64,000 bases of DNA, taken from Clostridium sp. Its GTDB lineage: Bacteria > Bacillota > Clostridia > Clostridiales > Clostridiaceae. The stretch covers positions 248,001 to 312,000 of the forward strand of contig NZ_JAGHFX010000058.1 in assembly GCF_017888565.1 (NCBI RefSeq), read 5' to 3'. How positions within the stretch are numbered: the first letter of the stretch is position 1; every line of letters starts with the position of its first letter. Below, one piece after another: positions 1,299-24,972 of the stretch. The notes beneath the pieces were generated by a model. That model did not search any database. It worked only from the letters and a program-made list of their open reading frames with translations, and had not been told where the DNA came from. The translations under genes and the position numbers were made by a program.

Positions 1299-2615
1299 AT
1301 GGATTTTACAAATATTAAATCACAAGCAGAGGGATATAAAGTTCAAATGACTAAGTTTTTAAGAGATTTAGTTGCTATTCCTGGAGAAAGCTGTGAAGAA
1401 AAAGGTGTTGTTAACCGTATAGCTGAAGAAATGAGAGCATTAGGATTTAATAAAGTTGAAATAGACCCACAAGGTAATGTTCTAGGATATATGGGTACAG
1501 GGGAAACATTAATAGGATTTGATGCACATATTGATACTGTTGGTATAGGAAACAGAGCAAACTGGAACTTTGATCCATATGAAGGATATGAAACTGAAAC
1601 TGAAATAGGTGGACGTGGTACTTCTGACCAACTAGGAGGAATAGTTTCAGCTGTTTATGGAGCAAAAATAATGAAAGACTTAGATCTTTTAAATGAAAAA
1701 TATACAGCATTAGTTGTTGGATCAGTTCAAGAAGAAGACTGTGATGGACTTTGCTGGGAATATATAATTAAAGAAGATAATATAAGACCAGAATTTGTAG
1801 TTTCTACAGAGCCAACAGATGGTGGAATCTATAGAGGGCAAAGAGGACGTATGGAAATTCGCGTTGATGTTCAAGGGGTTTCATGCCATGGTTCAGCTCC
1901 AGAAAGAGGAGATAATGCAATTTACAAAATGGCTGAAATATTAATGAATGTTCGTGACCTTAATGAAAATAATGCTGCTGATGATAAAGAAATCAAAGGC
2001 TTAGTAAAAATGCTAGATGAAAAATATAACCCAGAATGGAAGGAAGCTAACTTCTTAGGAAGGGGTACAGTTACAACTTCTCAAATATTCTATACTTCTC
2101 CAAGTCGTTGTGCTGTTGCTGATTCATGCTCAATTTCTTTAGATCGTCGTATGACAGCAGGTGAAACTTGGGAAAGCTGTTTAGAAGAAATTCGTGAACT
2201 TCCAGCTGTTAAAAAATATAATGCAACAGTAAGTATGTATAACTATGATAGGCCAAGCTATACAGGCTTAGTATATCCAATTGAATGTTACTTCCCAACT
2301 TGGGTAATTCCAGAAGATCATATTGTTACAAAAGCAATGGAAGAGTCATATGAAGGTCTTTACGGAACAACAAGAAGTGGGGCTACAGTAACAGAGGAAA
2401 TGAGAAAGGCTCGTCCGCTTACAGATAAATGGACATTCTCAACAAATGGTGTTTCTATAATGGGACGTAATGGAATCCCTGTAATAGGATTTGGACCTGG
2501 AGCAGAAGCAGAAGCGCATGCTCCAAATGAAAAGACTTGGAAAGAAGATTTAATTAAGTGTGCTGCTGTATATGCTGCATTACCAACAATTTACTGTACT
2601 AATAAAGAAAAATAA
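1299..2615 (+). CDS. ygeY: YgeY family M20 metallohydrolase
   Basis: This 438-residue member of the M20 di-zinc peptidase/deacylase family has the expected ligands in order: HID at 77-79, D110 in RGTSDQLGG, an EED pair near 145, an STEPTDGG motif near 170 and a late HAPNE histidine. It belongs to the YgeY group, often annotated as selenium metabolism-linked hydrolase. ATG follows the strong site AAGGGGGAAAAG. It is first in a four-gene operon with a knotted carbamoyltransferase, carbamate kinase and diaminopropionate lyase, driven by the sigma-54 promoter. I infer that it removes a carbamoyl or ureido group from a 2,3-diaminopropionate derivative. From memory, such gene sets have been linked to anaerobic uric acid breakdown. 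Confidence 0.9.
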
Positions 2616-2680
2616 TAAAATAATTTAATTTTAAATTTGAATAAATAAAAATTAAGATAATGAAGGGTAGGAATTTTAAA

Positions 2681-3874
2681 ATGGCTTTAATGGACAAATA
2701 TATTAATGAACTTAATCAATTAGATTTCTCAAAAATGCATAATGATGACTTTATGGAGACTTGGAAAAAAAGCGACGATGAATTAAAAGCTGTATTTACA
2801 GTTGCAGAAGCTTTAAGAGATTTAAGAAAAAATAATATTTCTACAAAAATATTTGATAGTGGACTTGGAATTTCTTTATTTAGAGATAATTCAACAAGAA
2901 CAAGATTCAGCTTTGCATCAGCTTGTAACCTTTTAGGATTAGAAGTTCAAGATTTAGATGAAGGAAAATCACAAGTAGCACATGGTGAAACTGTTAGAGA
3001 AACAGCAAACATGGTTTCATTTATGGCTGACGTTATAGGTATTAGAGATGATATGTATATCGGAAAAGGAAATACTTACATGAGAGAAGTATCAAAGGCT
3101 GTAAGAGAAGGATATGAAGAAGGAACTTTAGAACAAATTCCAACTTTAGTTGATTTACAATGTGATATTGACCATCCAACACAAGCTATGGCTGATGCCC
3201 TTCATTTAATTAATGAATTTGGTGGAATAGAAAACTTAAAGGGTAAAAAAGTAGCTATGACTTGGGCTTATTCTCCATCTTATGGAAAACCATTATCAGT
3301 TCCTCAAGGAATAATTGGATTATTAACAAGATTCGGTATGGATGTTGTTTTAGCTCACCCAGAAGGATATGAAGTAATGCCAGAAGTTGAAGAAATTGCT
3401 AAAGAAAATGCTAAACTTTCAGGTGGATCATTTACAAAGACTAATTCAATGGAAGAAGCATTTAAAGAAGCTGATATCGTATATCCAAAGAGCTGGGCTC
3501 CATTTGTTGCTATGGAAAAGAGAACAGATTTATATGGAAATGGCGATTTCGATGGAATCAAAGAATTAGAAAAAGAATTATTAGCACAAAATGCTGAACA
3601 TAAAGATTGGCAATGTACAGAAGAATTAATGAAGACAACTAAAGATGGAAAAGCATTATATTTACATTGCTTACCAGCAGATATTACAGGAGTTAGCTGT
3701 GAAACTGGGGAAGTTGATGCTTCAGTATTTGATAGATATAGAAAACCTCTTTATAAAGAAGCTAGCTATAAGCCATATGTTATTGCAGCAATGATTTTCT
3801 TAAGCAAAGTTAAGGATCCACAAGAAGTTTTAGCTAAATTAGAAGAAGCTAAAAAGGATCGTCAAGTTAAATAA
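2681..3874 (+). CDS. ygeW: Knotted carbamoyltransferase YgeW
   Basis: This 397-residue protein of the aspartate/ornithine carbamoyltransferase superfamily shows the carbamoyl phosphate site STRTR (71-75), a central HPTQAMADA motif and a late HCLPAD motif. Length and sequence fit YgeW, a knotted transcarbamylase, better than OTCase or ATCase. An ATG at 2660 is in frame, but the site AAGGGTAGG (2663-2671) is placed for the ATG at 2681, giving the usual family length. Next to carbamate kinase it probably runs in the catabolic direction: a ureido compound plus phosphate gives an amine plus carbamoyl phosphate. A strong hairpin follows before arcC. Confidence 0.9.
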   Translation: MALMDKYINELNQLDFSKMHNDDFMETWKKSDDELKAVFTVAEALRDLRKNNISTKIFDSGLGISLFRDNSTRTRFSFASACNLLGLEVQDLDEGKSQVAHGETVRETANMVSFMADVIGIRDDMYIGKGNTYMREVSKAVREGYEEGTLEQIPTLVDLQCDIDHPTQAMADALHLINEFGGIENLKGKKVAMTWAYSPSYGKPLSVPQGIIGLLTRFGMDVVLAHPEGYEVMPEVEEIAKENAKLSGGSFTKTNSMEEAFKEADIVYPKSWAPFVAMEKRTDLYGNGDFDGIKELEKELLAQNAEHKDWQCTEELMKTTKDGKALYLHCLPADITGVSCETGEVDASVFDRYRKPLYKEASYKPYVIAAMIFLSKVKDPQEVLAKLEEAKKDRQVK

Positions 3875-3897
3875 GCTTAACACTATATAAAATATAT

Positions 3898-3934
3898 GGG
3901 CTTTTATCCAAGGAAAATATAAGGATAAAAGCCC
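3898..3934 (+). other. Strong intra-operon hairpin between ygeW and arcC
   Basis: A perfect 12-bp stem, GGGCTTTTATCC (3898-3909) with GGATAAAAGCCC (3923-3934), has a 13-nt loop. No T tract follows, only TAAACATTC, so it is not a standard terminator. I infer an RNA processing or stability element that sets upstream and downstream message levels apart. Confidence 0.75.
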
Positions 3935-3982
3935 TAAACATTCAAATTAATCATATATTCTAAGAATTTGAGGGAGAGAATT

Positions 3983-4915
3983 ATGAAAAAGAAAATTGTA
4001 ATAGCATTGGGTGGAAATGCGTTAGGAAATAATTTAGAAGAACAAATGGGTGCAGTTAAATCAACTGCAAAGGCTATAGTAGATTTAATTGAAGAAGGAC
4101 ATGATGTTGTAATATCTCATGGAAATGGGCCACAAGTAGGTATGATAAATCTTGCTATGGATGCACTAACTAAAGCAGATCATAAATACTCATCAATCCC
4201 AATGTCTGTATGTGTTGCAATGAGCCAAGGATATGTGGGATATGATTTACAAAATGCACTTAGAGAAGAACTATTAAGCAGAAATATAAATAAATCTGTT
4301 GCTACAGTTATTACTCAAGTAGAAGTAGATAAAAATGATAAGGCATTTGAAAATCCAACAAAGCCAATAGGAAGTTTTATGACAAAGGAAGAAGCTGATG
4401 TTTTAATTTCAAAGGGAATTAATGTTGTTGAAGATGCAGGTAGAGGATATAGAAGAGTTGTAGCTTCTCCAAAACCAAAGAGTATTGTAGAAATTGAAAC
4501 TATTAAAAGCTTAGCAGATTCAGGAAGCGTTGTAATCGCTTGTGGTGGTGGTGGTATTCCAGTAATTAAAGAGGGAAACCACTTAAGAGGAGCAAGTGCT
4601 GTTATAGATAAGGATTTTGCAAGTGCTACATTAGCTAAAGAGTTAGATGCTGATTTTTTAATTATATTAACAGCTGTAGAAAAGGCTGCTATAAACTATG
4701 GTAAGGAAAATGAAGAGTGGCTAGATAAAGTTACAGTAGAAGAAATGAAGAAGTATGTTGAAGAAGGACATTTTGCTCCAGGTTCAATGAAGCCAAAGGT
4801 GGAGGCAGGTATAGAGTTTGCAGAATCTAAAGAGGGAAGACATGCACTTATTACATTGTTAGAAAAAGCTAAAGATGGAATTAAAGGAAAGACTGGAACA
4901 AGAATAATTAGATAG
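3983..4915 (+). CDS. arcC: Carbamate kinase
   Basis: This 310-residue amino acid kinase fold protein opens with KKKIVIALGGNALG, the carbamate kinase N-terminus. It also has the SHGNGPQVG motif, the ACGGGGIPV motif and the AVIDKDFAS segment typical of the family. It converts carbamoyl phosphate plus ADP to ATP, CO2 and ammonia. The ATG at 3983 is preferred over an upstream in-frame TTG at 3968 because AGGGAGAG sits just before it. In this operon it should harvest ATP from carbamoyl phosphate made by YgeW, as YqeA is thought to do in E. coli. The symbol arcC is by family; no arginine deiminase is nearby. Confidence 0.92.
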   Translation: MKKKIVIALGGNALGNNLEEQMGAVKSTAKAIVDLIEEGHDVVISHGNGPQVGMINLAMDALTKADHKYSSIPMSVCVAMSQGYVGYDLQNALREELLSRNINKSVATVITQVEVDKNDKAFENPTKPIGSFMTKEEADVLISKGINVVEDAGRGYRRVVASPKPKSIVEIETIKSLADSGSVVIACGGGGIPVIKEGNHLRGASAVIDKDFASATLAKELDADFLIILTAVEKAAINYGKENEEWLDKVTVEEMKKYVEEGHFAPGSMKPKVEAGIEFAESKEGRHALITLLEKAKDGIKGKTGTRIIR

Positions 4916-4930
4916 TTAGGGGGTTTAATA

Positions 4931-6145
4931 ATGGGAGAAAAGATATTATGGAAAGAAAATACCATGCCAAAAAGTAAAATAGATGGTGATTTGGATTTTT
5001 TAAATATGGATGAAATAAATAAAGCTAGAAACTTTCATAAGAGTTTTCCAGAATATAGTGTTACACCATTAGTTAACTTAGAAAATTTAAGTGAAAGACT
5101 AGGACTTGGAGGAATTTATTTAAAAGATGAATCATATAGATTTGGATTAAATGCTTTTAAAGTTCTAGGTGGATCTTATTCAATGGGAAAATACTTAGCA
5201 CAAAGATTAAATATGGATATAGCAGAACTACCATATGAAAAATTAACTTCAGATGAAGTGAAAGAAAAGCTTGGAGATATAACTTTCGTTACTGCAACAG
5301 ATGGAAATCATGGAAGAGGAGTTGCATGGACAGCTAATAGATTAAAACAAAAATCAGTAGTTTATATGCCAAAGGGATCTTCTTTAATAAGACTTGAAAA
5401 TATAAGAAAAGAAGGTGCTGATGCATCTATTACTGATATGAACTATGATGATGCAGTAAGATTAGCTGCTAAATATGCAGATGAGCATAATGGAGTTGTA
5501 GTTCAAGATACTGCATGGGAAGGTTATGAAGAAATTCCAGCATGGATAATGCAGGGATATGGAACTATGGGACTTGAAGCATTAGAGCAATTAAGAAATG
5601 ATTATAAAGTAAATAGACCAACTCATATTTTCTTACAAGCTGGAGTTGGATCATTAGCAGGTGGAATTCAAGGATTCTTTGCTTCAGTATTTGGTGAAGA
5701 TTGCCCAAGAACTGTAGTAGTAGAAGCTAAGGAAGCTGCATGTTATTATGAATCAGCTATAGCTAATGATGGAAAACCAAGAGCTGTTGGTGGAGATATG
5801 CCAACAATAATGGCTGGACTTGCATGCGGTGAAGTTAATATAACAGGCTTTGAAGTTTTAAAGAATTATTCTAAAGCTTTCGTATCAGCACCAAATTATG
5901 TTGCAGCAAATGGAATGAGAGTTCTAGGCAATCCACTTAATGGAGATAAGAAAGTTGTTTCTGGAGAATCAGGAGCAGTTACTTTAGGATTAGTTTATGA
6001 ATTGATGACAAATCCAGAGTATAAGGATTTAAAAGAATCAATTGGTTTAGATGAAAATTCAAGAGTCCTTTTATTTAGTACAGAAGGAGATACGGATCCA
6101 GATAAGTATAGAGAAATTGTTTGGGAAGGAAGCTATAATAGATAA
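4931..6145 (+). CDS. dpaL: Diaminopropionate ammonia-lyase (PLP)
   Basis: This 404-residue fold-type II PLP enzyme has the Schiff-base lysine K77 in GLNAFKVLGGS, a TATDGNHGRG motif, a GVGSLAGG phosphate-binding loop and a late STEGDTDP motif. These match 2,3-diaminopropionate ammonia-lyase (YgeX/DpaL), which yields pyruvate and two ammonia. ATG at 4931 follows AGGGGGT, 15 bp after arcC, so translation is probably coupled. As the last enzyme of the operon it delivers pyruvate and ammonia, turning the upstream ureido compound into carbon, nitrogen and ATP. Confidence 0.93.
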   Translation: MGEKILWKENTMPKSKIDGDLDFLNMDEINKARNFHKSFPEYSVTPLVNLENLSERLGLGGIYLKDESYRFGLNAFKVLGGSYSMGKYLAQRLNMDIAELPYEKLTSDEVKEKLGDITFVTATDGNHGRGVAWTANRLKQKSVVYMPKGSSLIRLENIRKEGADASITDMNYDDAVRLAAKYADEHNGVVVQDTAWEGYEEIPAWIMQGYGTMGLEALEQLRNDYKVNRPTHIFLQAGVGSLAGGIQGFFASVFGEDCPRTVVVEAKEAACYYESAIANDGKPRAVGGDMPTIMAGLACGEVNITGFEVLKNYSKAFVSAPNYVAANGMRVLGNPLNGDKKVVSGESGAVTLGLVYELMTNPEYKDLKESIGLDENSRVLLFSTEGDTDPDKYREIVWEGSYNR

Positions 6146-14484: not shown

Positions 14485-15333
14485 ATGAAATCTTCATTAG
14501 TAAAAGATAGAAGTGAGTTAACGAAAGCAGAGAATAAGATTTGCGATTATATAGAAGAGTATATGAATAGTAGCATATACATGACAGTTACAGAGATAGC
14601 GAATAATTGTGGTGTAGGAGAAGCAACTGTTACAAGATTTTGTAGAAAATTAGGATTTAGAAGTTTTCTAGAATTTAAAATGACAATGGCTCAAGAGTTT
14701 AAGAATAATGGATATGATAGCGAGGCTAGTAGCAAAGATGATGTGTTATCAGAAGATGATTCTTTAAGTGATGTTGTTACTAAGCTCTATGAATTAAATG
14801 TAAATTCTTTAGAGAACACTTTAAAGAAAATTGATTATACAATTATTGAAGAAGTATCAGAAGTATTAGCTAAAGCAAAAAGAATATTGTTTATAGGAGT
14901 TGGACATTCCGGGGTAATTGCAGAAGACGCATATTATAAATTTATGAAAACAGGTTTTAGCTGTAGTTGTTACAGAGATAGTCATACGCTAGTAATGATG
15001 GCATCATTAATGCAAGAAGAAGATGTTTTATTTATTATTTCTAATAGTGGAAATACAGAGGATATAAATATAGCAGCAGAAATAGCAAGAGATAATAATG
15101 CTAAAGTTATTTCTATTACTGAAAATTTATTATCTAAATTAGCAAGAGTTAGCGATTATGTTTTAAATTATACATATCAAGAATTAAAATTTGAAATGGA
15201 GTCTTTAGGAACAAAAGTATCACAAAACTTTTTAATAGATTTAATATGGAGCAATGTTATAAGGAAGAATAAAGAAAAAGCTTTAGATTCTAAGAATAAA
15301 ACTGACAAAGCAATTGAAAGATTGAATAAATAA
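14485..15333 (+). CDS. MurR/RpiR family regulator (HTH plus SIS)
   Basis: This 282-residue protein has an RpiR-type helix-turn-helix over about the first 77 residues (TVTEIANNCGVGEATVTRFCRKLG) and a SIS sugar-phosphate domain from about 125 to 260 (GVGHSGVIAED, then ISNSGNTEDI). These proteins sense phosphorylated sugars or amino sugars. It is transcribed just ahead of the catabolic cluster starting at 15680 and separated from it by a terminator and tandem promoters. I infer that it controls that cluster through the GAAA-N5-TTTC elements next to both promoters. Confidence 0.9.
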   Translation: MKSSLVKDRSELTKAENKICDYIEEYMNSSIYMTVTEIANNCGVGEATVTRFCRKLGFRSFLEFKMTMAQEFKNNGYDSEASSKDDVLSEDDSLSDVVTKLYELNVNSLENTLKKIDYTIIEEVSEVLAKAKRILFIGVGHSGVIAEDAYYKFMKTGFSCSCYRDSHTLVMMASLMQEEDVLFIISNSGNTEDINIAAEIARDNNAKVISITENLLSKLARVSDYVLNYTYQELKFEMESLGTKVSQNFLIDLIWSNVIRKNKEKALDSKNKTDKAIERLNK

Positions 15334-15334
15334 T

Positions 15335-15367
15335 GCGATGAGGAGTTTATATGCCTCATCGCTTTTC
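15335..15367 (+). terminator. Terminator of the RpiR gene
   Basis: The stem GCGATGAGG with CCTCATCGC (15335-15343 and 15354-15362) is followed by TTTTCT. It begins 2 bp after the stop codon. Confidence 0.88.
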
Positions 15368-15399
15368 TATTAACAAAGAAAAAGAATTTCAAAAAATGA

Positions 15400-15449
15400 G
15401 AAAAATAATTTCAAAAAATATTGATGAAAATGTTTAACAATGATAAGAT
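15400..15449 (+). promoter_or_regulatory. Promoter P1 with upstream GAAA-N5-TTTC element
   Basis: The -35 box TTGATG (15421-15426) and -10 box TAAGAT (15444-15449) have a 17-bp spacer. An inverted repeat GAAA-N5-TTTC (15400-15412) ends 9 bp before the -35 box. The whole block is repeated at P2 (15597-15646) with the same geometry. Confidence 0.65.
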
Positions 15450-15455
15450 TAAAGA

Positions 15456-15575
15456 AGTTAGTGTAGTATAAATAGTAAAATAATAGGGTTGTATAAAGAG
15501 ATATTGATATTAAGAATAAAACTTAGATAATAAAATTGAAAGAACTTGATTTTTAATCAAGTTCTTTTTTTTGTG
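15456..15575 (+). ncRNA. Putative short leader or small RNA from P1
   Basis: Transcription from P1 should start near 15456 and meet a strong terminator at 15540-15575, giving an RNA of about 115 nt with no ribosome binding site or open frame. It could be an attenuated leader of the catabolic operon or a separate small RNA. This is inferred from promoter and terminator only. Confidence 0.4.
15540..15575 (+). terminator. Terminator between promoters P1 and P2
   Basis: AAGAACTTGAT (15540-15550) pairs with ATCAAGTTCTT (15556-15566) and is followed by a run of T. It stands between two copies of the same promoter block and could act as an attenuator for P1 transcripts. Confidence 0.88.
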
Positions 15576-15596
15576 AAAAATATTTTCTAAAAAAAT

Positions 15597-15646
15597 GAAA
15601 AAATATTTCAAAAAGTATTGATTAATAATATTTACGGTGATAGAAT
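15597..15646 (+). promoter_or_regulatory. Promoter P2 of the RpiR-linked catabolic operon
   Basis: The -35 box TTGATT (15618-15623) and -10 box TAGAAT (15641-15646) have a 17-bp spacer. The inverted repeat GAAA-N5-TTTC at 15597-15609 again ends 9 bp before the -35 box, as at P1. It serves the gene at 15680. RpiR binding at the repeat is inferred. Confidence 0.68.
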
Positions 15647-15679
15647 TATATTAACAAAAAAAGAGGGGAAGGTTTGAAT

Positions 15680-16396
15680 ATGAACTTAATTAATGTATTG
15701 AATGAAAAAGAAATATCACTAATAGTAAGTCTTCCAGAGAATAGTGTAGAATTAGCAAAGGTAGCACTATCAGCAGGAGCAGATGTTTTAAAGATTCATA
15801 TTAATGTTGAGCATAGAGCTAGTAAAACTAGGTTTGGATCTTTAGCAGAAGAATTAGAGACAATTAAGAAAATAGTTTCTCTTTGCAAAGAGTATAACAA
15901 GCCAATTGGTATTGTAGCTGGAGGACATAATAAAATACCAATGACAGAAATTAAAGCAATAATAGATGAGGGGTTTAACTTTATATCATTATATGATAAG
16001 CATATGAATCCATTAATATTTAATGAAGACATATACAAAATGGTTGCAATAGATGATAATTATAAATTAGAATATGTCAAGGCTTATGATGAGTTGCCTA
16101 TAGATGTATTAGAATGTTCTATTATGAATCCAGACACTTATGGGGACGAGCTTACGGTAAGAGAAATATTACAATATAAATCAGTTCGTAACGCAACTTC
16201 TAAACCTATAGTGATACCTACTCAAAGAAGAATTACACCAGAACAAGCATTAATATTACAAGGAATGGGTATTAATGGAATAATGATTGGGGCAATAGTA
16301 ACTGGTAAAACAAGAGATAGTATTTATGATACTACATTAAAATTCAGAAAGACTATAGATAATTTCAATAATAAGGGGACTATAGATGAAAAATAA
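15680..16396 (+). CDS. TIM-barrel protein of unknown reaction
   Basis: This 238-residue protein has alternating strands and helices of a TIM barrel. Examples are SLPENSVELAKVALSAGAD near the start, then KPIGIVAGG, and near the end a GINGIMIGAIVTG loop like the phosphate site of NanE, HisA and related barrels. I do not recognise the exact family. The ATG at 15680 is chosen over the TTG at 15674 because AGGGGAAGG ends 7 bp before it. The next gene overlaps its end by 11 bp. It opens a catabolic operon beside an RpiR regulator, so an epimerase or aldolase acting on a phosphorylated sugar-like compound is plausible. Confidence 0.7.
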   Translation: MNLINVLNEKEISLIVSLPENSVELAKVALSAGADVLKIHINVEHRASKTRFGSLAEELETIKKIVSLCKEYNKPIGIVAGGHNKIPMTEIKAIIDEGFNFISLYDKHMNPLIFNEDIYKMVAIDDNYKLEYVKAYDELPIDVLECSIMNPDTYGDELTVREILQYKSVRNATSKPIVIPTQRRITPEQALILQGMGINGIMIGAIVTGKTRDSIYDTTLKFRKTIDNFNNKGTIDEK

Positions 16397-17903
16397 TAAA
16401 ATATTATATGTTCCACTAGATGATAGACCAGTTAATTTAGAGTTGGTTCTTCAATTAGCTAATTTAGCAGACTTAGAGATTAAAGCACCAAGCAAAAAGG
16501 ATTTAGGATGCTTTTTTGCTGAGGGAAATGTAGATTCAATAAAAGAGTGGATTAAAAGTGAAAAATGTGATGCTTTAATAATATCTTTAGATATGTTGCT
16601 ATATGGTGGATTAATAGCTTCAAGGACTGATAAAAAGTCTTTAGAAGAATCAATAAAAATATTAAACTTTTTAAAAGATTATAAAAGAATAAATAAAGAA
16701 GTGAAAATATATGCATTTTCAAATATTATGAGGTTATCTATATCAGTTTCAAATGATGAAAGTCAAATATGGTGGAGCAAAATAAATAAATATAATGAAT
16801 TGAGATATAGAGTAGAGTCATTAAATGAAGTGAATTTGAAAAATAATTTGGATAAAATAGAATCAGAAATACCAAAAGATGTTTTAAATACGTATTTAAG
16901 AACACGAGAAAGAAATCATAAAGCTAATATGGAATCAATAGAGCTTGTGAAGGATGGGATAATTGACTTTTTAATATTATCGCAAGAGGATTGCTCTAAG
17001 TATGGTATGCACTTAATAGAACATAAAAGAATCCATGAAAAAATAAATAAGTATAAATTAGAAGATAGAATATATGTTTATCCAGGTGCTGATGAGATCG
17101 GACAAATTCTTGTTAGTCGATATGTAAACGATATAAGAGAATTTAGACCTAAGGTATATGTAGATTTTGATGACAAGAAGGCAGAAGATAGTATTCCAAA
17201 GTTTGAAGATAGATCACTTAAAATTAATATAAATGAACATTTAAAAAGTACTAATGCTTTGATTATGGAGAAATATGATGAATGTGATTATATACTGGCT
17301 GTAACTACTCCTAATATTCCTTATATAGATATGGCCTCTGATACTATAGAAAACTATAATAAGAAAATGGTAATTGATAATTTTATAAGTAGAATTAAGA
17401 ACTATATAAATTTAGGTAAAAAAGTATCAATTGCAGATTTAGCCTTTTCAAATGGTGGAGATGAATATCTTATAAAAAGATTAAAAGAAGAGAATTTACT
17501 ATTAAAAGTAATAGCATATGGAGCTTGGAATACTGCTGGAAATGCAATGGGAACATCTATAGCTCATGGAAATATTATTTCAAATATAAATTCAAATGGT
17601 AATCTAGATCTAAAAAAATCATTAGAGAGCTTAAGATTTTTAATAGAGAGATATTGCGATGATTATATGTATCAAAGCAGTATTAGAAATGAAACAAATA
17701 AAGAAGTGTTAAAAGAAGGATTAAGTATTTTTAATATGAATAAAAGAGTTGAAAAAATAGATTCTTTTGTTGAGAAGTCATTAAATAAAATGGCTAATGA
17801 GTATTTTTCTAAAAGTAAAGTCAACTATTTAAGGGCTAAAGGAGAAATAGAAGAGATAATAGTAAAGGCTAAATTACCATGGAATAGAACATTTGAAGTG
17901 TAA
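16386..17903 (+). CDS. DUF4127 family protein
   Basis: This 505-residue protein opens with ILYVPLDDRPVNLE, the signature I associate with DUF4127, a family without a settled function. Other features are an SLDMLLYGGLIASR segment near 75 and an AYGAWNTAGNAMGTSIAHG segment near 380. There is no signal peptide, so it is cytoplasmic. It overlaps the TIM-barrel gene by 11 bp and has its own site, AAGGGGA. Tight coupling to the TIM-barrel protein and the FAD oxidoreductase suggests a step in the same catabolic route. Any reaction would be a guess. Confidence 0.8.
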   Translation: MKNNKILYVPLDDRPVNLELVLQLANLADLEIKAPSKKDLGCFFAEGNVDSIKEWIKSEKCDALIISLDMLLYGGLIASRTDKKSLEESIKILNFLKDYKRINKEVKIYAFSNIMRLSISVSNDESQIWWSKINKYNELRYRVESLNEVNLKNNLDKIESEIPKDVLNTYLRTRERNHKANMESIELVKDGIIDFLILSQEDCSKYGMHLIEHKRIHEKINKYKLEDRIYVYPGADEIGQILVSRYVNDIREFRPKVYVDFDDKKAEDSIPKFEDRSLKININEHLKSTNALIMEKYDECDYILAVTTPNIPYIDMASDTIENYNKKMVIDNFISRIKNYINLGKKVSIADLAFSNGGDEYLIKRLKEENLLLKVIAYGAWNTAGNAMGTSIAHGNIISNINSNGNLDLKKSLESLRFLIERYCDDYMYQSSIRNETNKEVLKEGLSIFNMNKRVEKIDSFVEKSLNKMANEYFSKSKVNYLRAKGEIEEIIVKAKLPWNRTFEV

Positions 17904-17937
17904 TGTGAGGTTAATATAAAGCTTAAGGAGGGAAGGT

Positions 17938-19296
17938 ATGAAAATTAAAGGAAGTAAAAATTGTGATATTTTGGTTATTGGTGGGGGTCCTTCAGGTATT
18001 ATAGCAGCAAAAGCAGCAGCTGCAGATGGAAATAAAGTAATTTTAATAGAAAGAGGTGGATACTTAGGTGGATGTGCAACTAAAGCTTTAGTTATTCCTC
18101 TTATGACTTTTCATGCTGGTAAAAAGCAAATAGTAATGGGATATGCAAATGAACTTATAGAAAGAATTAAACAAAATGGAGGGACAATAGGTCATATAGA
18201 AGATCCACTTGGTGTAGCATCAACAGTTACACCCATAGAAACAGAAATTTATAAGTATGTAGCTCAAGAATATTTGTTAGAAGCAGGGGTAGAAATTTTA
18301 TATCATACAGAAGCACTAGATGTAGACGTTAAGGAAAAAAATTTAAATTCAATATTTGCAAAAACTAGATCAGGTATATATGAGATAAATGCTAAATATT
18401 ATGTTGATGCCACAGGTGATGGAGAAATAGCATATCTTTCTGGAAATCAAATGGAGATAGGTAGAGAAAAAGATGGTAAGTGTCAGCCAATGACAATGAT
18501 GTTTAAGGTAAGCAATGTGAATATAGATGAATTGGTTAAATATGTTGAAGATAATAAAGAGGAGTTTGTTATAGGTAATAATATTAAAAGTCTTTTAGAT
18601 ACAAAAAGAGTTGCAATCTCAGGATTTTTTTCAAAGATAAAGGAAGCTACAAAGAATGGTGATTTTACTGTAAATAGGGATAGAGTTCTTTTTTTTGAAT
18701 TAAATAGAAGGGGCGAAGTTGCAATAAATATGAGTAGAGTTATAGATAAAATTTCAGTTAGAGATTTTGATTTGTCAGAAGCTACTATAGAAGGTAGAAG
18801 ACAGGTAATTGAAATATATAACTTTTTGAAAAAATATATACCAGGATTTAAAGATGCAATATTAGTTCAATCTGGAGACGAAATAGGGGTTAGAGAATCA
18901 AGAAGATTAGTTGGAGAGTATCAACTAACAGAAAAGGATATTGTTACAAAAAGGATATTTGAAGATACAATAGCACTTGGAAGTTGGCCTATAGATATTC
19001 ATGATCCAGATGGTAAGGAATTAGATCTTATGGAAATGAAAATTGGTGATTATTATGGAATACCATATCGAGCATTATTACCAAAAGAAATCAATAACTT
19101 AATTATAACTGGAAGAGCGATAAGTACAACACATGAAGCATTAGCATCTATGAGAGTTTCACCAATATGCATGGCTTTAGGACAAGCAGCTGGAACTGCA
19201 GCTAAGATTTGTTTTAAATTTAAAAAAGATTTTAGAGAATTAAGTTATGAGGAGCTTAAATTAGAGTTATTAAAAAGTAATCAAGTTATTGAATAA
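17938..19296 (+). CDS. FAD-dependent oxidoreductase
   Basis: This 452-residue flavoprotein has an N-terminal dinucleotide fold (ILVIGGGPSGIIAAK, residues 11-25) followed by GGYLGGCATKA near 40-50. A late ITGRAISTTHEALASMRVSP segment and a closing GQAAGTAAKI segment are typical of the FAD_oxidored family (PF12831). The cysteine in GGCATK may be redox active. ATG follows AAGGAGGGAAGG. It lies in the RpiR-linked operon between DUF4127 and a permease. I infer oxidation of an alcohol or amine group of the imported compound; electron acceptor and substrate are unknown. Confidence 0.82.
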   Translation: MKIKGSKNCDILVIGGGPSGIIAAKAAAADGNKVILIERGGYLGGCATKALVIPLMTFHAGKKQIVMGYANELIERIKQNGGTIGHIEDPLGVASTVTPIETEIYKYVAQEYLLEAGVEILYHTEALDVDVKEKNLNSIFAKTRSGIYEINAKYYVDATGDGEIAYLSGNQMEIGREKDGKCQPMTMMFKVSNVNIDELVKYVEDNKEEFVIGNNIKSLLDTKRVAISGFFSKIKEATKNGDFTVNRDRVLFFELNRRGEVAINMSRVIDKISVRDFDLSEATIEGRRQVIEIYNFLKKYIPGFKDAILVQSGDEIGVRESRRLVGEYQLTEKDIVTKRIFEDTIALGSWPIDIHDPDGKELDLMEMKIGDYYGIPYRALLPKEINNLIITGRAISTTHEALASMRVSPICMALGQAAGTAAKICFKFKKDFRELSYEELKLELLKSNQVIE

Positions 19297-19347
19297 AATA
19301 ATTTGCTTAAATATTTAATAAATTATAAATTGTAAGGAGTGTGATAA

Positions 19348-19356
19348 ATGAATTAA
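19348..19356 (+). other. Minimal start-stop frame ATG AAT TAA with a good ribosome site
   Basis: AAGGAGTGTGATAA precedes ATG AAT TAA in the 171-bp gap between the oxidoreductase and permease genes. The site looks fully functional yet encodes only two residues. It may be a remnant of a lost start or a translated minigene that tunes expression downstream. The rest of the gap shows nothing recognisable. Confidence 0.4.
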
Positions 19357-19467
19357 TATAAGACCATTTATAAGAAATTATGACATAAATAAATTTTAGC
19401 TCTAATTTTACTCAACAATAAATTATTAAAGTGCAATTATAAAATAATAGTAAAAAGGGGAATGAAA

Positions 19468-20769
19468 ATGGGAGAAGTTTTAAATATTCAAGTTATTCTT
19501 ATATTATTAGTTTTTGCTGTCTTTACAGGACTTATGATAGCGAAAAAGTTACCTACACTTTTAGCATTACCACTACTAGGCATTATAATAGCGGTAATTG
19601 CAGGAGTTCCTTTTATGACTCCAACAGAAGAAGGTGGACAAACTCTAATGGCTCATGTAATTGGAGCAGGATCATCTAGGCTTGCTGGAACAATGATGGC
19701 GGCTATTTTCGGGGCTATGTTTGCAAAAGTTATTCAAAAACAAGGTGTATCAAATACTATAATTAGAAAAGCAGCAGAACTTGCTGGGGATAAGCCTTTG
19801 GCTATTGCTTTTATTTTAACAGCAGCTTGTGCAATAGTATTTTCAGCTTTAGGAGGAGCAGGAGCGGTAATAATGGTTGCAACGATAGTGATACCGCTTA
19901 TGTTATCAGCAGGAATAAAGCCAAAGGTTGCAGCAGGATCATTTCTTATGGGGTTAGGACTTGGCGGATTATTTAATGTTGCTAATTATCAATTTTATGT
20001 TGATGTAATAGGAATGGATATGGAGCTTGTAAAGTCAACTTCATTAGTGTTAGGTTTAATATCTATTATAGTGACAGCAGCGTATATATTAATTAACGTA
20101 AGAAGTAAGAGTGTGAGAAGTACGTGGGCAATGCCAAATAGTAATTTTGAAACAAAGACCCATGATGATGTAAATATATTTGCATTAATATCACCATTAC
20201 TTCCAATATTATTAGTATTCTTCTTTAAATTTAGTGCTGAACTTTCATTATTAATTTCAGTAGTGTATACAATTCTAGTAACTAAGCCATCACAAATAAT
20301 TCAAATAACAACAAGTTCACTTGTTGAAGGAATACAAGACGTAGCGGGAGTTATTGGATTAATGATTGGAATAGGTATATTATTAAATGGTGTATCAGCA
20401 AATGCGACAATAGCATTAATGCAACCACTTATAGGAGCTATATTACCAACTACTCCAATACCATATATTATAATATTTACTATAGCATCACCACTTGCAT
20501 TATATAGAGGACCTCTTAATTTATATGGATTGGGTTCAGGTATTGGAAATGTTATGATGGCAGCAGGAACATTAAGTCCAGCAGCTATAGGTATGGCTTT
20601 AAGATCTACAGGCGTAGTACAAGGAATATCAGATCCTACAAATACTCATAATGTAATCGTTGCAGATTTTGCAAAAGTTGATGTTAACTCAGTATTAAAA
20701 TCTACACTTCCATATACTGTGATAATAACATGCTTATCATTAATCTATACAGCTTTAATGATCTTTTAA
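19468..20769 (+). CDS. Permease of the GntP/citrate-transporter (ion transporter) type
   Basis: This 433-residue, very hydrophobic protein has about eleven or twelve membrane segments. Small-residue loops such as GAGSSRLAGTMMAAIFGAMF and SALGGAGAVIMVATIVIP recall GntP and CitMHS family carriers of organic acids. ATG at 19468 is favoured over 19462 because AAGGGG would sit only one base from the latter. Its place between the FAD oxidoreductase and the HyuA-like gene makes it the likely importer of the cluster's substrate. A carboxylated compound such as a sugar acid or lactam acid is an inference. Confidence 0.78.
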   Translation: MGEVLNIQVILILLVFAVFTGLMIAKKLPTLLALPLLGIIIAVIAGVPFMTPTEEGGQTLMAHVIGAGSSRLAGTMMAAIFGAMFAKVIQKQGVSNTIIRKAAELAGDKPLAIAFILTAACAIVFSALGGAGAVIMVATIVIPLMLSAGIKPKVAAGSFLMGLGLGGLFNVANYQFYVDVIGMDMELVKSTSLVLGLISIIVTAAYILINVRSKSVRSTWAMPNSNFETKTHDDVNIFALISPLLPILLVFFFKFSAELSLLISVVYTILVTKPSQIIQITTSSLVEGIQDVAGVIGLMIGIGILLNGVSANATIALMQPLIGAILPTTPIPYIIIFTIASPLALYRGPLNLYGLGSGIGNVMMAAGTLSPAAIGMALRSTGVVQGISDPTNTHNVIVADFAKVDVNSVLKSTLPYTVIITCLSLIYTALMIF

Positions 20770-20803
20770 TATTATATAAATAATATATGCTTTTTAAAAA
20801 TAT

Positions 20804-20827
20804 AAAGGTGCGTATATGCGCACCTTT
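20804..20827 (+). terminator. Hairpin between permease and HyuA-like genes (weak or partial terminator)
   Basis: A 9-bp perfect stem AAAGGTGCG with CGCACCTTT (20804-20812 and 20819-20827) is followed by AATGATAAATA, a poor T tract. It may only reduce read-through. Confidence 0.5.
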
Positions 20828-20856
20828 AATGATAAATACATCAGGAGGGAAATATA

Positions 20857-23004
20857 ATGGGTAAGGTAAGGATTGGAATAGATGTTGGTGGAACATTCAC
20901 AGACGCTGTAGTAATAGATAATAATACTTATGAAGTAATAGGAAAAGCTAAAATACCTACAACTCATCATGAAGTAGAAGGAGTTGCAAAAGGAGTAATA
21001 GAAGTTATAAAAAAAGTTCTAGAAGAAAATAAAATTTCTCCTAATGATGTAGTTTTTATAGCTCATGGAACAACTCAAGCAACTAATGCATTATTAGAAG
21101 GTGATGTTGCGAAGGTTGGAATTATTGGAATGGGAAAAGGAATGGAAGGAGAAAGAGCTAAAAATGAGACTAAAGTTGATAATATAGAACTTTCAGTAGG
21201 AAAATATTTGTACACAGAACATAGATATATAGATTCAGGAAAAATATCACAAAGTTCTATAGGGGAGGCTATAAAAGAACTTAAAAATGCTGGGGCAGAA
21301 GTGATTGTAGCATCAGAAAGCTATTCAGTTGATAATCCGGAAAATGAAAAAATTGTTATAGATGAAGCTTTAAGTAGTGGAATATATGCAACTGGAGGAT
21401 ATGAAATATCACAATTATATGGATTAAGAGCAAGAACGAGAACTGCAGTGGTAAATGGAGCATTAATTCCTAAAATGATGGAAACGGCAAATATGACTGA
21501 AACTTCAGTAAAAAATGCAAATATAAAAAAGCCACTTATGATAATGAGGTGTGATGGCGGAGTAATGACTATTGACGAGGTTAGAAAAAGACCAATTCTA
21601 ACGATGCTATCAGGTTTAGCAGCTGGTGTGGCTGGGGCATTAATGTATGAAAAAGTTTCAGATGGAATATTTTTTGAAGTTGGAGGAACTTCCACTGATA
21701 TATCTGTAATAAAAGATGGAAAAGTAATGATTAAGAATTCTCAAGTTGGTGGACATAAGCTTTATTTGAAATCTTTAGATGTTAGAACACTTGGTGTTGC
21801 AGGCGGAAGTATGATTGTTGTTGAAAATAATAAAATAGTAGATGTAGGACCTAGAAGTGCACATATTGCAGAAAAAGAATATGAAATATTTGCAGGTACA
21901 AATGAAATATCAAATCCGAGATTAAGCTATATATCTCCAAGGCCAGAGGATAAGTGTAATTATGTGGCTATTGAATGTGATGAAGGAAAAAGTTTTGCTT
22001 TAACTTTAGCAGGTGCAGCAAATATTTTAGGGTATGTACCTGAAAATGATTATGCAAGAGGAAATATAGAAGCTGGGAGAAAAGTTTGGGAAGTAATGGC
22101 AAAAGAGGTTAATATGTCTATAGAAGAGGCTGCAAAGACTGTTATGGATATAGCTATAGGTAAAGTAAAGAAAATAGTTGATGAATTAATAACAGAGTAT
22201 AAATTAAATAAATCTATAATAACACTTGTCGGTGGTGGTGGTTCAGCTTCTATAGTTACGCCATATCTTTCAGAAGTTATGAATGTAAAATATAATATAG
22301 CTAAGAATGCAGCATATATTTCTACAATAGGGGTTGCGTTAGCATTAGTTAGGGAGCAAATAGAAAGAAGTGTTATAAATCCTACAGAGCAAGATATAAA
22401 AAAAATAAGAATGGATGTATTTGAAGCTGTTGTAAAATCAGGAGCAAATCCTGACACAGTAGAAATTACTGTAGATGTAGATGCTAAAAAGAATATATTA
22501 AGAGCATCAGCAACTGGGGCAACAGAGCTTAGAACTAAAGAACTTGGTGCTGAAAAGAAGTCAAAGGAGGAACTTATAAATGTAGTATGCGATTCAACAG
22601 GGGTATCTAAAGAAAATGTTAAGCTCATTGGAGAAACAGGGAGATGGAGCATTTTTAAGTGTATTGAAACTACGAAAAAGCTATTTGGATTAATATCAAG
22701 TAAAAAAGAAAAAATAAGAATTCTTGATGAAGATGGTGTTATAAGATTACAAAAAGATAAAGGCAAATTACTATTCTGCACAAAAAAAGAGCTATATAAA
22801 ACTTATAATAGTTTTATAGATGAAAATACACTATTCACAGATGCAGGAGCTCAGCTTCCAAAGATATATGTAGTATTTAAACAAAAGCTTATAGATCTAT
22901 CAGGAGTTATTAGTAAAGATCAGCTATTGACATTAACAAATCTTGAAATAGAACTTTTAGATGAAGATACAAAGATTGGAATATTGGCAACTCAAGAAAT
23001 TTAG
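20857..23004 (+). CDS. HyuA-like hydantoinase/oxoprolinase family protein
   Basis: This 715-residue protein opens with RIGIDVGGTFTDAVV, the N-terminal ATP-binding motif of the hydantoinase A/oxoprolinase family, and continues with AHGTTQATNALLEGDVAKVG and FFEVGGTSTDISVI. These enzymes open lactam or hydantoin rings, or carboxylate substrates, with ATP. The usual HyuB partner is absent. Instead the last 200 or so residues form an extension, beginning near EVTVDVDAKKNILRA, that I do not recognise. ATG follows CAGGAGGG. It is likely the energy-consuming step of the unknown pathway. It could also be an acetone carboxylase-like subunit, which I judge less likely. Confidence 0.82.
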   Translation: MGKVRIGIDVGGTFTDAVVIDNNTYEVIGKAKIPTTHHEVEGVAKGVIEVIKKVLEENKISPNDVVFIAHGTTQATNALLEGDVAKVGIIGMGKGMEGERAKNETKVDNIELSVGKYLYTEHRYIDSGKISQSSIGEAIKELKNAGAEVIVASESYSVDNPENEKIVIDEALSSGIYATGGYEISQLYGLRARTRTAVVNGALIPKMMETANMTETSVKNANIKKPLMIMRCDGGVMTIDEVRKRPILTMLSGLAAGVAGALMYEKVSDGIFFEVGGTSTDISVIKDGKVMIKNSQVGGHKLYLKSLDVRTLGVAGGSMIVVENNKIVDVGPRSAHIAEKEYEIFAGTNEISNPRLSYISPRPEDKCNYVAIECDEGKSFALTLAGAANILGYVPENDYARGNIEAGRKVWEVMAKEVNMSIEEAAKTVMDIAIGKVKKIVDELITEYKLNKSIITLVGGGGSASIVTPYLSEVMNVKYNIAKNAAYISTIGVALALVREQIERSVINPTEQDIKKIRMDVFEAVVKSGANPDTVEITVDVDAKKNILRASATGATELRTKELGAEKKSKEELINVVCDSTGVSKENVKLIGETGRWSIFKCIETTKKLFGLISSKKEKIRILDEDGVIRLQKDKGKLLFCTKKELYKTYNSFIDENTLFTDAGAQLPKIYVVFKQKLIDLSGVISKDQLLTLTNLEIELLDEDTKIGILATQEI

Positions 23005-23014
23005 GAGTGATTAT

Positions 23015-23653
23015 ATGAAAAACTTATATTTTTTGACTGATGAAGTATTAGCGTTATTAGAACTTAAAGAGGATAGTTTATTTCATAAGATACCTAAAGA
23101 AAAGATAAAGTATTATATTAATGAAGCTAATAGAATAGGAAAAAATATTGCAAGTAAATATAGAGATGAAGAGATAGAATCACTTTTAAAGAGTAATGAA
23201 GTGAATGTATTAATAAAGGATAGATCTCAATCTAAAAGTTTAGATATTAGAGGAGAAATAACGTTTGACAAAAAGGAAAAACAAATAATAATCTATAAAA
23301 ACTCTATAGATCAAATAATAGGAACATTAAAAAAGTATGGATTTAATATATCAAAGCAGGAAGTATATAATATTCATTTAGCTCATGAATTCTATCATTT
23401 TCTAGAGTTTAAAAATGAAGAAAATACTAATTATTTATTAGATGAGATAGATATAAATTTTTTAGGGCCAATTAAAAGAAAAGCAACAATACTAAAAACA
23501 AGAGAAATAGCAGCACATGCTTTTTGTAAGGAATTATTAAATTTAAAATTTCATCCTAAAATATTAGACTATATATATTTAATAGAAAATAAAGAAATTA
23601 ACTTAGAGGAATTTAAAGATTATGTACATCAATTAAAATTAATGTATATATAA
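23015..23653 (+). CDS. Putative zinc metalloprotein with HExxH motif
   Basis: This 212-residue protein has HEFYH at 124-128 and a downstream TREIAAHAFCKELL segment. That segment's glutamate (164) and spacing resemble the third ligand helix of ImmA/IrrE-like and other gluzincin peptidases. No signal peptide or membrane segment is seen. The ATG at 23015, 10 bp after the HyuA-like gene and behind TTAGGAGTG, is better than the in-frame position inside that gene at 22961. It is the last gene of the cluster. It may be a peptidase acting on a regulator or a hydrolase of the pathway; I cannot tell which. Confidence 0.7.
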   Translation: MKNLYFLTDEVLALLELKEDSLFHKIPKEKIKYYINEANRIGKNIASKYRDEEIESLLKSNEVNVLIKDRSQSKSLDIRGEITFDKKEKQIIIYKNSIDQIIGTLKKYGFNISKQEVYNIHLAHEFYHFLEFKNEENTNYLLDEIDINFLGPIKRKATILKTREIAAHAFCKELLNLKFHPKILDYIYLIENKEINLEEFKDYVHQLKLMYI

Positions 23654-23801: not shown

Positions 23802-24842
23802 TTATAATTTAAGTAAAAAAGTTTTCAATGTATTAACTATTTTTGATATGTCTTCTTTAGTAACCCAGTAATGAGTTACAAATCTCATTTGACCATTTTC
23901 AACATCATTAATCTTAATATTATTTTCTAAAAAGTATTTTACTAATGATTTAGTGTCTATACTAGAATCTTTGAAACTGAAGAATACCATATTTATTTTA
24001 ACATTATCTAAATTAACATTAAGCTCTGGTATTTTGTTTAATTCATGTGCTAATATTTTAGCATTTTCATGGTCTTCTTTTAATCTTTTAGACATATCAT
24101 TTAGTGCAACGATACCTGCAGCGGCAAGGAAGCCAGCTTGTCTTAGTCCACCACCCATAAGCTTTCTCTTTTTCCTAGCTTTAGCTATAAAATCTTTACT
24201 TCCAGATAAAATTGAGCCAACAGGGGCACATAATCCTTTTGATAAGCAAAACATAACTGAATCACAATATTTAGTAATTTCTTTTACATCAACTCCAAGG
24301 GATGTAGAGGCATTAAATATTCTTGCACCATCTAAATGAACAGGTAGATTATATTTTTTAGCTATATTGAATACTTCCTTCATATTTTCAATAGTAAGTA
24401 CATTACCACTTGAGTGAGCATTTTCAATACAAATTAAAGATGTAGAAGGAAAGTGTATATCATCATCTTCAAAACGAATTCTTTTTTCTAGATCTTTAGA
24501 AGTTATAATACCATTTGGTGACTCTATAGTTCTTAATTGTACACCAGCAATTACAGAGCTTGCCCCAACTTCATGAGCAACTATATGATTAGAATCAGCT
24601 ATAATTACTTCGCTACCTCTTTTGCAATGAGTAAATAAAGCAAGTTGATTACCAAAAGTACCACTTGGAACAAAAAGAGCAGCTTCTTTGCCAACTATTT
24701 CTGCTGCAATAGCTTCAAGCTTTATAACTGTAGGATCATCCCCATAAACGTCATCACCTACTTCAGCATTAAACATAGCTTCTTTCATAAAATCTGGTTG
24801 GTTAGTTACAGTATCACTTCTTAAATCTACAAAATTTTTCAA
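23802..24842 (-). CDS. ltaE: Low-specificity L-threonine aldolase
   Basis: This 346-residue fold-type I PLP enzyme begins NFVDLRSDTVT and carries GDDVYGDDP, HLDGARIFNA and the lysine motif FCLSKGLCAPVGS, all typical of threonine aldolase. It splits threonine or allo-threonine into glycine and acetaldehyde. The start is a TTG at 24842 on the minus strand. GAGGTG ends 6 bp before it, and a GTG at 24851 is part of that site. It stands alone, divergent from the membrane protein gene at 24973, and has its own terminator. Confidence 0.92.
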   Translation of the reverse strand: MKNFVDLRSDTVTNQPDFMKEAMFNAEVGDDVYGDDPTVIKLEAIAAEIVGKEAALFVPSGTFGNQLALFTHCKRGSEVIIADSNHIVAHEVGASSVIAGVQLRTIESPNGIITSKDLEKRIRFEDDDIHFPSTSLICIENAHSSGNVLTIENMKEVFNIAKKYNLPVHLDGARIFNASTSLGVDVKEITKYCDSVMFCLSKGLCAPVGSILSGSKDFIAKARKKRKLMGGGLRQAGFLAAAGIVALNDMSKRLKEDHENAKILAHELNKIPELNVNLDNVKINMVFFSFKDSSIDTKSLVKYFLENNIKINDVENGQMRFVTHYWVTKEDISKIVNTLKTFLLKL

Positions 24843-24972
24843 TAAAAACACCTCGTTTACATAAATTTATAACAATTATTAACACTATTATAATATAATA
24901 GAAGTAGATAATAAAACTAATTTATAAATAATATAGATATTATTTATTTTAAAGCAATAAGGAGTTGTTGTT

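Follow-up and report, generated by a model that had tools for sequence, protein, structure and literature searches.

Our analysis of a 64,000-nucleotide stretch of the Clostridium sp. genome (contig NZ_JAGHFX010000058.1, positions 248,001 to 312,000; hereafter the window) centres on seven open reading frames (ORFs) at 14485-23653, encoding an RpiR regulator, a TIM (triosephosphate isomerase) barrel, a DUF4127 protein, a PF12831 flavoprotein, a permease, a HyuA-like ATPase and an HExxH protein. All seven lie on the + strand, at the place given by an original prediction made from the same sequence. The cluster is a real, undescribed and probably catabolic operon, and distant bacteria carry its parts in varied combinations. 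The fuller reading, to which we give a probability of about one half, is of an accessory, inducible operon that takes up and breaks down a small, anionic derivative of a carbohydrate, the likeliest being a sugar acid or an N-acetylated amino-sugar acid. Its control logic is familiar and its enzyme set is without a described route; the original prediction knew of no such route, and we found no description of this gene set in the open-licence literature.

Core linkage and module exchange

The genes of the cluster are the following.

14485..15333, + strand: RpiR/MurR-type regulator (HTH_6 + SIS; Pfam), with a 52% identical copy in the C. sartagoforme locus L036
15680..16396, + strand: TIM-barrel protein from a family that has no Pfam entry, with a phosphate-binding-barrel fold (ORF call, relatives' starts, structure model, fold comparison)
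16386..17903, + strand: DUF4127 (PF13552) protein without an N-terminal extension (Pfam, E 3.7e-143; structure model)
17938..19296, + strand: flavin adenine dinucleotide (FAD)-dependent oxidoreductase (PF12831), TIM-linked subgroup (Pfam; tree)
19462..20769, + strand: permease, distantly DcuC-like (NCBIfam, weak)
20857..23004, + strand: stand-alone HyuA-like ATPase, its C-terminal region (about 502-715) without a Pfam domain (Pfam; PDB sequence relatives)
23015..23653 (alternative ORF start 22961), + strand: putative HExxH...E metalloprotein (invariant residues; start from L036 and L038)

Loci in other genomes were scanned by tblastn with cut-offs of 60 bits (38 for the HExxH protein), and ORFs were called by the longest-ORF rule and checked by tblastn. 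The spread is patchy, with a TIM match in 5 of 147 related genomes (its own included; one, weak at E 4e-4 and 29%, was not counted). The comparison set of 26 TIM loci excludes the window itself, genome G506 and the weak match, and includes two near-copies, L065 and L105. TIM and flavoprotein genes share one cluster in 23 of the 26, a raw count of 24 having been lowered because the flavoprotein matches in L058 are distant paralogues away from the TIM gene; the other three loci (L058, L094, L095) meet contig ends inside hyuA. Around this pair, the permease is present in 18 loci and HyuA in the identical 18, while the HExxH gene occurs in 12, none of them outside those 18 (contig ends interrupt another three, and the tblastn scan revealed no HExxH gene in the permease-HyuA loci L109-L111), and DUF4127 in 13. 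Genes for a CUT1 sugar ATP-binding cassette (ABC) importer are found in seven, never with the permease; these make up seven of the eight permease-free loci, the eighth (L103) being a 10-kb contig. By comparison, 20 control stretches of 20 kb, hand-placed in ten of the same genomes, held no TIM, flavoprotein, DUF4127, permease, HyuA or HExxH gene, and CUT1 genes in only one. The predicted conserved unit is thus borne out by linkage across the 26 TIM loci, the genes being clustered in other genomes as well.

The flavoprotein matches PF12831 (FAD_oxidored) over its full length (406 bits, profile 1-416 of 416). In a tree of 33 flavoproteins, all 22 TIM-linked rows fell on one side of a branch with support 88/94, an outcome for which 0 of 500 shuffles gave a value as low, and both kinds, TIM-linked and other, are present in three genomes (G211, G213, G372). 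Given the linkage across TIM loci and this split in the tree, the TIM-flavoprotein pair is most likely a co-inherited core. The TIM protein has no Pfam match at 1e-3, nor do the permease and HExxH proteins. Its structure model is confident (predicted local distance difference test score 94.9), and fold comparison backs the barrel and places it closest to TrpA, HPS, ThiE and IGPS, all phosphate-binding barrels.

DUF4127 is matched nearly end to end (478 bits, 1-486 of 489), and comparison of its model with PDB folds gave no clear match. The family has at least 881 relatives at E<=0.001 and was found in 63 of the 398 genomes sampled from the phylum; some members bear LPXTG or FIVAR domains. We chose 37 DUF4127 neighbourhoods by hand, four of which hold a TIM gene. 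The other 33, among which L062 is the same place as the TIM locus L102, contain a related flavoprotein in 12 cases, RpiR in 9, ROK in 9, NanE in 7 and CUT1 genes in 10, and Pfam-named genes in DUF4127 loci include GH84, GH20, GHL10-DUF4985, GNAT, AXE1 and NamZ. The amino-sugar loci L040-L044 (RpiR, NanE, ROK, CUT1 ABC, and GH84 in two) resemble the window cluster in combining DUF4127, a PF12831 flavoprotein and RpiR, but their flavoprotein lies outside the TIM-linked group, and they have an ABC importer and glycosidases with no HyuA or permease. Separately, one DUF4127-flavoprotein locus (L039:11918-15170) carries ADP-ribosylglycohydrolase, Gfo/Idh/MocA and xylose-isomerase-like barrel genes. 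By eye, S-layer-homology genes (L047, L068) and an LCP-type gene (L047) stand beside DUF4127, as does a NamZ gene in L059. For part of the family, a role on wall polymers is possible.

The permease, HyuA and HExxH genes form a module of their own. The predicted import of an acid agrees with a permease that is distantly DcuC-like, DcuC-type proteins being anion carriers; its NCBIfam DcuC match reaches 31.7 bits against a cut-off of 100, which leaves it outside DcuC proper, and it has no PF03606 match at E<=1. The HyuA-like protein carries the ATPase domains Hydant_A_N (PF05378, 100 bits) and Hydantoinase_A (PF01968, 239 bits), and N-methylhydantoinase and 5-oxoprolinase are its best matches by sequence in the PDB. 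In the HExxH protein, residues H142, E143, H146, E149 and E182 are invariant in 10 sequences. One locus, L146:6376-14164, has the whole module with no TIM or flavoprotein gene, together with KDPG aldolase, HPS and PHI (all three over the NCBIfam cut-off), a 2-keto-3-deoxygluconate (KDG)-type kinase (below cut-off) and a xylose-isomerase-like barrel, with KdgT farther along; this neighbourhood may possibly be the key to the substrate. In L109, the permease-HyuA module adjoins a KDG-type kinase (best model a KHG/KDPG aldolase/sugar kinase fusion, below its cut-off), an aldehyde dehydrogenase, an RraA-like aldolase and a PALP enzyme.

The control region and genes apparently lost from it

The regulator belongs to the RpiR/MurR family by its domains, HTH_6 and SIS both being matched. 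The 346-bp gap between rpiR and the TIM gene holds a 74-bp repeat twice (15378-15451 and 15575-15648, 197 bp apart, 74% identical), each copy with two GAAA-N5-TTTC palindromes that start 22 bp from each other. The features outside the genes are these.

15378..15412, unstranded: first tandem palindrome (GAAA-N5-TTTC-N9-GAAA-N5-TTTC), putative RpiR operator (pattern scan, repeat D1); probably the left-over promoter region of lost secreted-protein genes
15457..15510, unstranded: apparent deletion scar; L037 carries about 3.5 kb here, with a gene for a secreted protein and a leucine-rich-repeat (LRR) gene (76-77% alignment of both flanks to L037)
15538..15568, + strand: intrinsic-terminator-like hairpin, probably a remnant of the lost LRR gene (its counterpart follows the LRR gene in L037)
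15575..15609, unstranded: second tandem palindrome, putative RpiR operator of the operon, including GAAAAATATTTTC (pattern scan, repeat)
20803..20828, unstranded: inverted repeat with a perfect 10-bp stem in the permease-hyuA gap, a T-run after the repeat being absent on the + strand

In the whole 4.26 Mb genome, the tandem palindrome is exact at two places, both in this gap, and recurs at 8 others with two mismatches; the reversed-pattern control gave 8 places. Two exact copies are present in L037 (0 of 200 shuffles gave two) and one copy with one mismatch in L038 (4 of 200 shuffles gave one). In L036, where hyuA is placed apart, upstream of rpiR, a two-mismatch copy lies just before hyuA and a three-mismatch copy before the TIM gene. 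The claim of a single control region is correct only in part: a terminator-like hairpin separates two promoter/operator-like copies in the RpiR-TIM gap, and a further inverted repeat precedes hyuA.

According to one study, GAAAAATATTTTC is an element of Clostridium perfringens nan promoters, NanR binds nanE and nanI promoter fragments, and the element was suggested as a possible site (PMC4509764). That NanR-regulated locus for sialic acid catabolism resembles the window cluster in this element, in its RpiR-type regulator and in having the permease gene in the same operon as a gene for a phosphate-barrel protein. It differs in that the window cluster lacks NanA, NanK and a canonical NanE and adds DUF4127, the flavoprotein, HyuA and the HExxH protein. 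By analogy with NanR, the ligand of the SIS domain is plausibly a phosphorylated pathway intermediate, and the cluster is probably switched by its own sugar-phosphate sensor, RpiR.

The spare copy of the control region has a likely history. In L037, a secreted-protein gene and an LRR gene lie between two control regions of the tandem-palindrome type, and L036 has the same two genes between rpiR and TIM. The left part of the window gap aligns to the rpiR end and first promoter region of L037 (76%) and the right part to its LRR-gene end, terminator and TIM promoter region (77%). Because these partners lie 3.5 kb apart in L037, the window lineage appears to have lost the secreted-protein and LRR genes that its relatives kept, with a spare promoter region and terminator remaining. 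The secreted family is present in 4 of the 26 TIM loci, all four with DUF4127 (L036:6324-7790, L037:14660-16111, L049:13341-14693, L101:13183-15198). Related proteins occur in Tepidanaerobacter and among actinobacteria (Nonomuraea, for example), and the precomputed annotation of relatives gives no Pfam domain.

Gene starts were also revised. The TIM gene most likely begins at ATG 15680, since close relatives begin MNLI, and the HExxH gene is better placed at ATG 23015, after AGGAG, where the L036 and L038 copies begin, so that no overlap with hyuA is required. With these starts, the gaps from TIM through DUF4127, flavoprotein, permease and hyuA to HExxH are -11, 34, 165, 87 and 10 bp. The next gene 3' of the cluster is a convergent GntG/low-specificity threonine aldolase (23802-24851, - strand, over NCBIfam cut-offs). 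Elsewhere in the window (1299-6145), four + strand genes were read by eye as a YgeY-like peptidase, a YgeW-like carbamoyltransferase, a carbamate kinase and a diaminopropionate ammonia-lyase, a set that we take to resemble part of an anaerobic purine/urate degradation cluster.

Substrate class and competing explanations

Regulators recognised beside TIM clusters are mostly of sugar types (RpiR, ROK or LacI), which fits the original prediction; the exceptions, read by eye, are a GntR-like gene (L107) and a two-component pair (L108), and no regulator was recognised beside the clusters of L109 and L110. The TIM and ABC loci L065, L104 and L105 have a GH3 gene with KHFPGHGDT, which we take to be the NagZ signature (the L065 copy scores 197.7, just below the NCBIfam beta-N-acetylhexosaminidase cut-off of 207). 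Across variant loci, the neighbours include this GH3 as well as GH84, GH20, NanE, ROK and RpiR. Catabolism of sugar acids or amino sugars is suggested by the content of such neighbourhoods, which hold NagZ-type GH3, GH84, NanE, ROK, KDG-type kinase, KDPG aldolase and HPS/PHI. This chemistry is favoured above all because variants independent of one another sit beside such genes and, mostly, beside sugar-type regulators. A likeness to the 2-keto-3-deoxygluconate/uronate pathway (KdgT, KdgK, Eda) is seen in L146, where the permease-HyuA-HExxH module adjoins a KDG-type kinase, KDPG aldolase and, farther along, KdgT, but the window cluster has none of these genes (no KdgK or KDPG aldolase match in Pfam), with TIM and the flavoprotein in their place.

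Under this reading, RpiR would sit on the tandem palindromes and respond to a phosphorylated intermediate held by its SIS domain, and the DcuC-like permease would import the anion. The stand-alone HyuA-type ATPase would then activate it with ATP, most likely by phosphorylation, like other actin-fold kinases. The flavoprotein may oxidize a hydroxyl to a keto group, and the phosphate-binding barrel may cleave or rearrange the oxidized (phospho)sugar, feeding central metabolism. DUF4127 might act on a conjugated or oligomeric form, because it is optional in the cluster and adjoins hexosaminidases elsewhere, and the HExxH protein would be part of the permease-HyuA module. More tentatively, and with more doubt than belief on our side, the cluster could represent a new sugar-acid route. 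Here, an imported sugar or amino-sugar acid would have the stand-alone HyuA-type ATPase as its entry (or ring-opening) kinase, the flavoprotein-TIM pair would carry out oxidation and C-C or C-N cleavage in an undescribed way, DUF4127 would be a new-fold enzyme freeing the substrate from a conjugate, and permease-HyuA-HExxH would be a portable uptake-and-activation cassette for different downstream pathways.

Several observations weigh against parts of this reading. DUF4127 was not seen in 13 of the 26 TIM loci, nor a related flavoprotein in 21 of the 33 other DUF4127 loci, so that we do not regard DUF4127 as a fixed partner; some of its loci also adjoin genes that by eye resemble wall or S-layer genes. 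The 88/94 support for the flavoprotein branch does not reach the level that the tree tool treats as firm. The L036 palindrome copies are degenerate (2 and 3 mismatches, with 2 of 100 shuffles reaching three matches), so that this locus is weak alone, and the scan of L036 found no tandem palindrome before its secreted-protein gene. The link from permease to anion has weak DcuC matches behind it, in that 4 of 11 members match at E<=1 and the best reaches 5e-6, and the permease loci L097 and L107 also have ribose-type ABC genes upstream, by eye.

Other explanations can be set against this background. An unlikely one is the salvage of cell-wall amino sugars (muropeptides, spore-cortex muramic delta-lactam or a wall polymer rich in N-acetylmannosamine), with HyuA opening or phosphorylating a muramyl acid. 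NagZ-type GH3, NamZ, GH84, NanE, ROK and RpiR stand beside DUF4127 in other loci, and N-acetylmuramic acid, a carboxylate, would suit an anion carrier. Yet the window cluster proteins have no MurQ-, AnmK- or hexosaminidase-type match in Pfam, the TIM relatives at 61% identity include Oceanotoga, which is not known to form spores, and sugar-acid genes lie beside the permease-HyuA module. Use of a lactam, hydantoin or 5-oxoproline, with HyuA as an ATP-driven ring opener, appears a little less credible still. Both HyuA domains are far over cut-off, the PDB relatives already named fit it, and the domain pair is shared with 5-oxoprolinase, N-methylhydantoinase, caprolactamase and acetone/acetophenone carboxylase. 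Hydantoinase, oxoprolinase and acetone/acetophenone carboxylase as described, however, require a HyuB half, and 17 of the 18 genomes with a HyuA of the cluster type, that of the window among them, lack HyuB (PF02538); in the sole exception, HyuB lies beside another HyuA. This absence, the strongest reason for disfavouring lactam chemistry, makes those described reactions unlikely for the cluster HyuA and leaves the originally proposed "ATP-driven ring opening or carboxylation" unsupported. The cluster HyuA also differs in its Pfam-less C-terminal region and its linkage to sugar genes, the recognised regulators and neighbours being mostly of sugar types.

It is improbable, too, that the system remodels wall polymers or repairs metabolites without supplying carbon, the relatives' secreted and LRR genes being the main effectors. 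Such genes lie between the operator-like regions of L037 and in the rpiR-TIM gap of L036, and LPXTG or FIVAR domains on some DUF4127 proteins would suit this role, but such a secreted gene was not seen in 22 of the 26 TIM loci (contig ends truncate some of them), and it is transport and sugar-pathway genes that are exchanged around the core. We give least credence to a side operon for sialic acid (nan), in which a NanR-like RpiR would be the regulator and TIM would replace NanE. One operator-like copy does include the nan motif, and profile comparison aligns TIM to NanE with 94% probability (E 1.5e-7). The window TIM protein itself, however, scores 12.1 bits against a PF04131 cut-off of 27 (10 of 38 TIM family members match at E<=1, best 1.3e-4), and its GIVAGG aligns to the GIVKRN of NanE, so that the NanE catalytic Lys, which sits in the third strand, is missing. 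Further, two NanE genes over the Pfam cut-off lie elsewhere in the genome, and the window cluster has no NanA-like or canonical NanE match in Pfam.

Implications

Returning to the catabolic reading, DUF4127, a family with no assigned reaction and for which we found no clear relative of known structure, gains a defined and testable genetic context, which also covers a Pfam-less TIM-barrel family and HyuA-like ATPases that lack HyuB. The swaps of modules around a fixed TIM-flavoprotein pair, with permease-HyuA-HExxH in some loci and a CUT1 ABC importer, in part with a NagZ-type GH3, in others, narrow the likely substrate to sugar-acid or amino-sugar chemistry, and thereby make a small substrate screen realistic.

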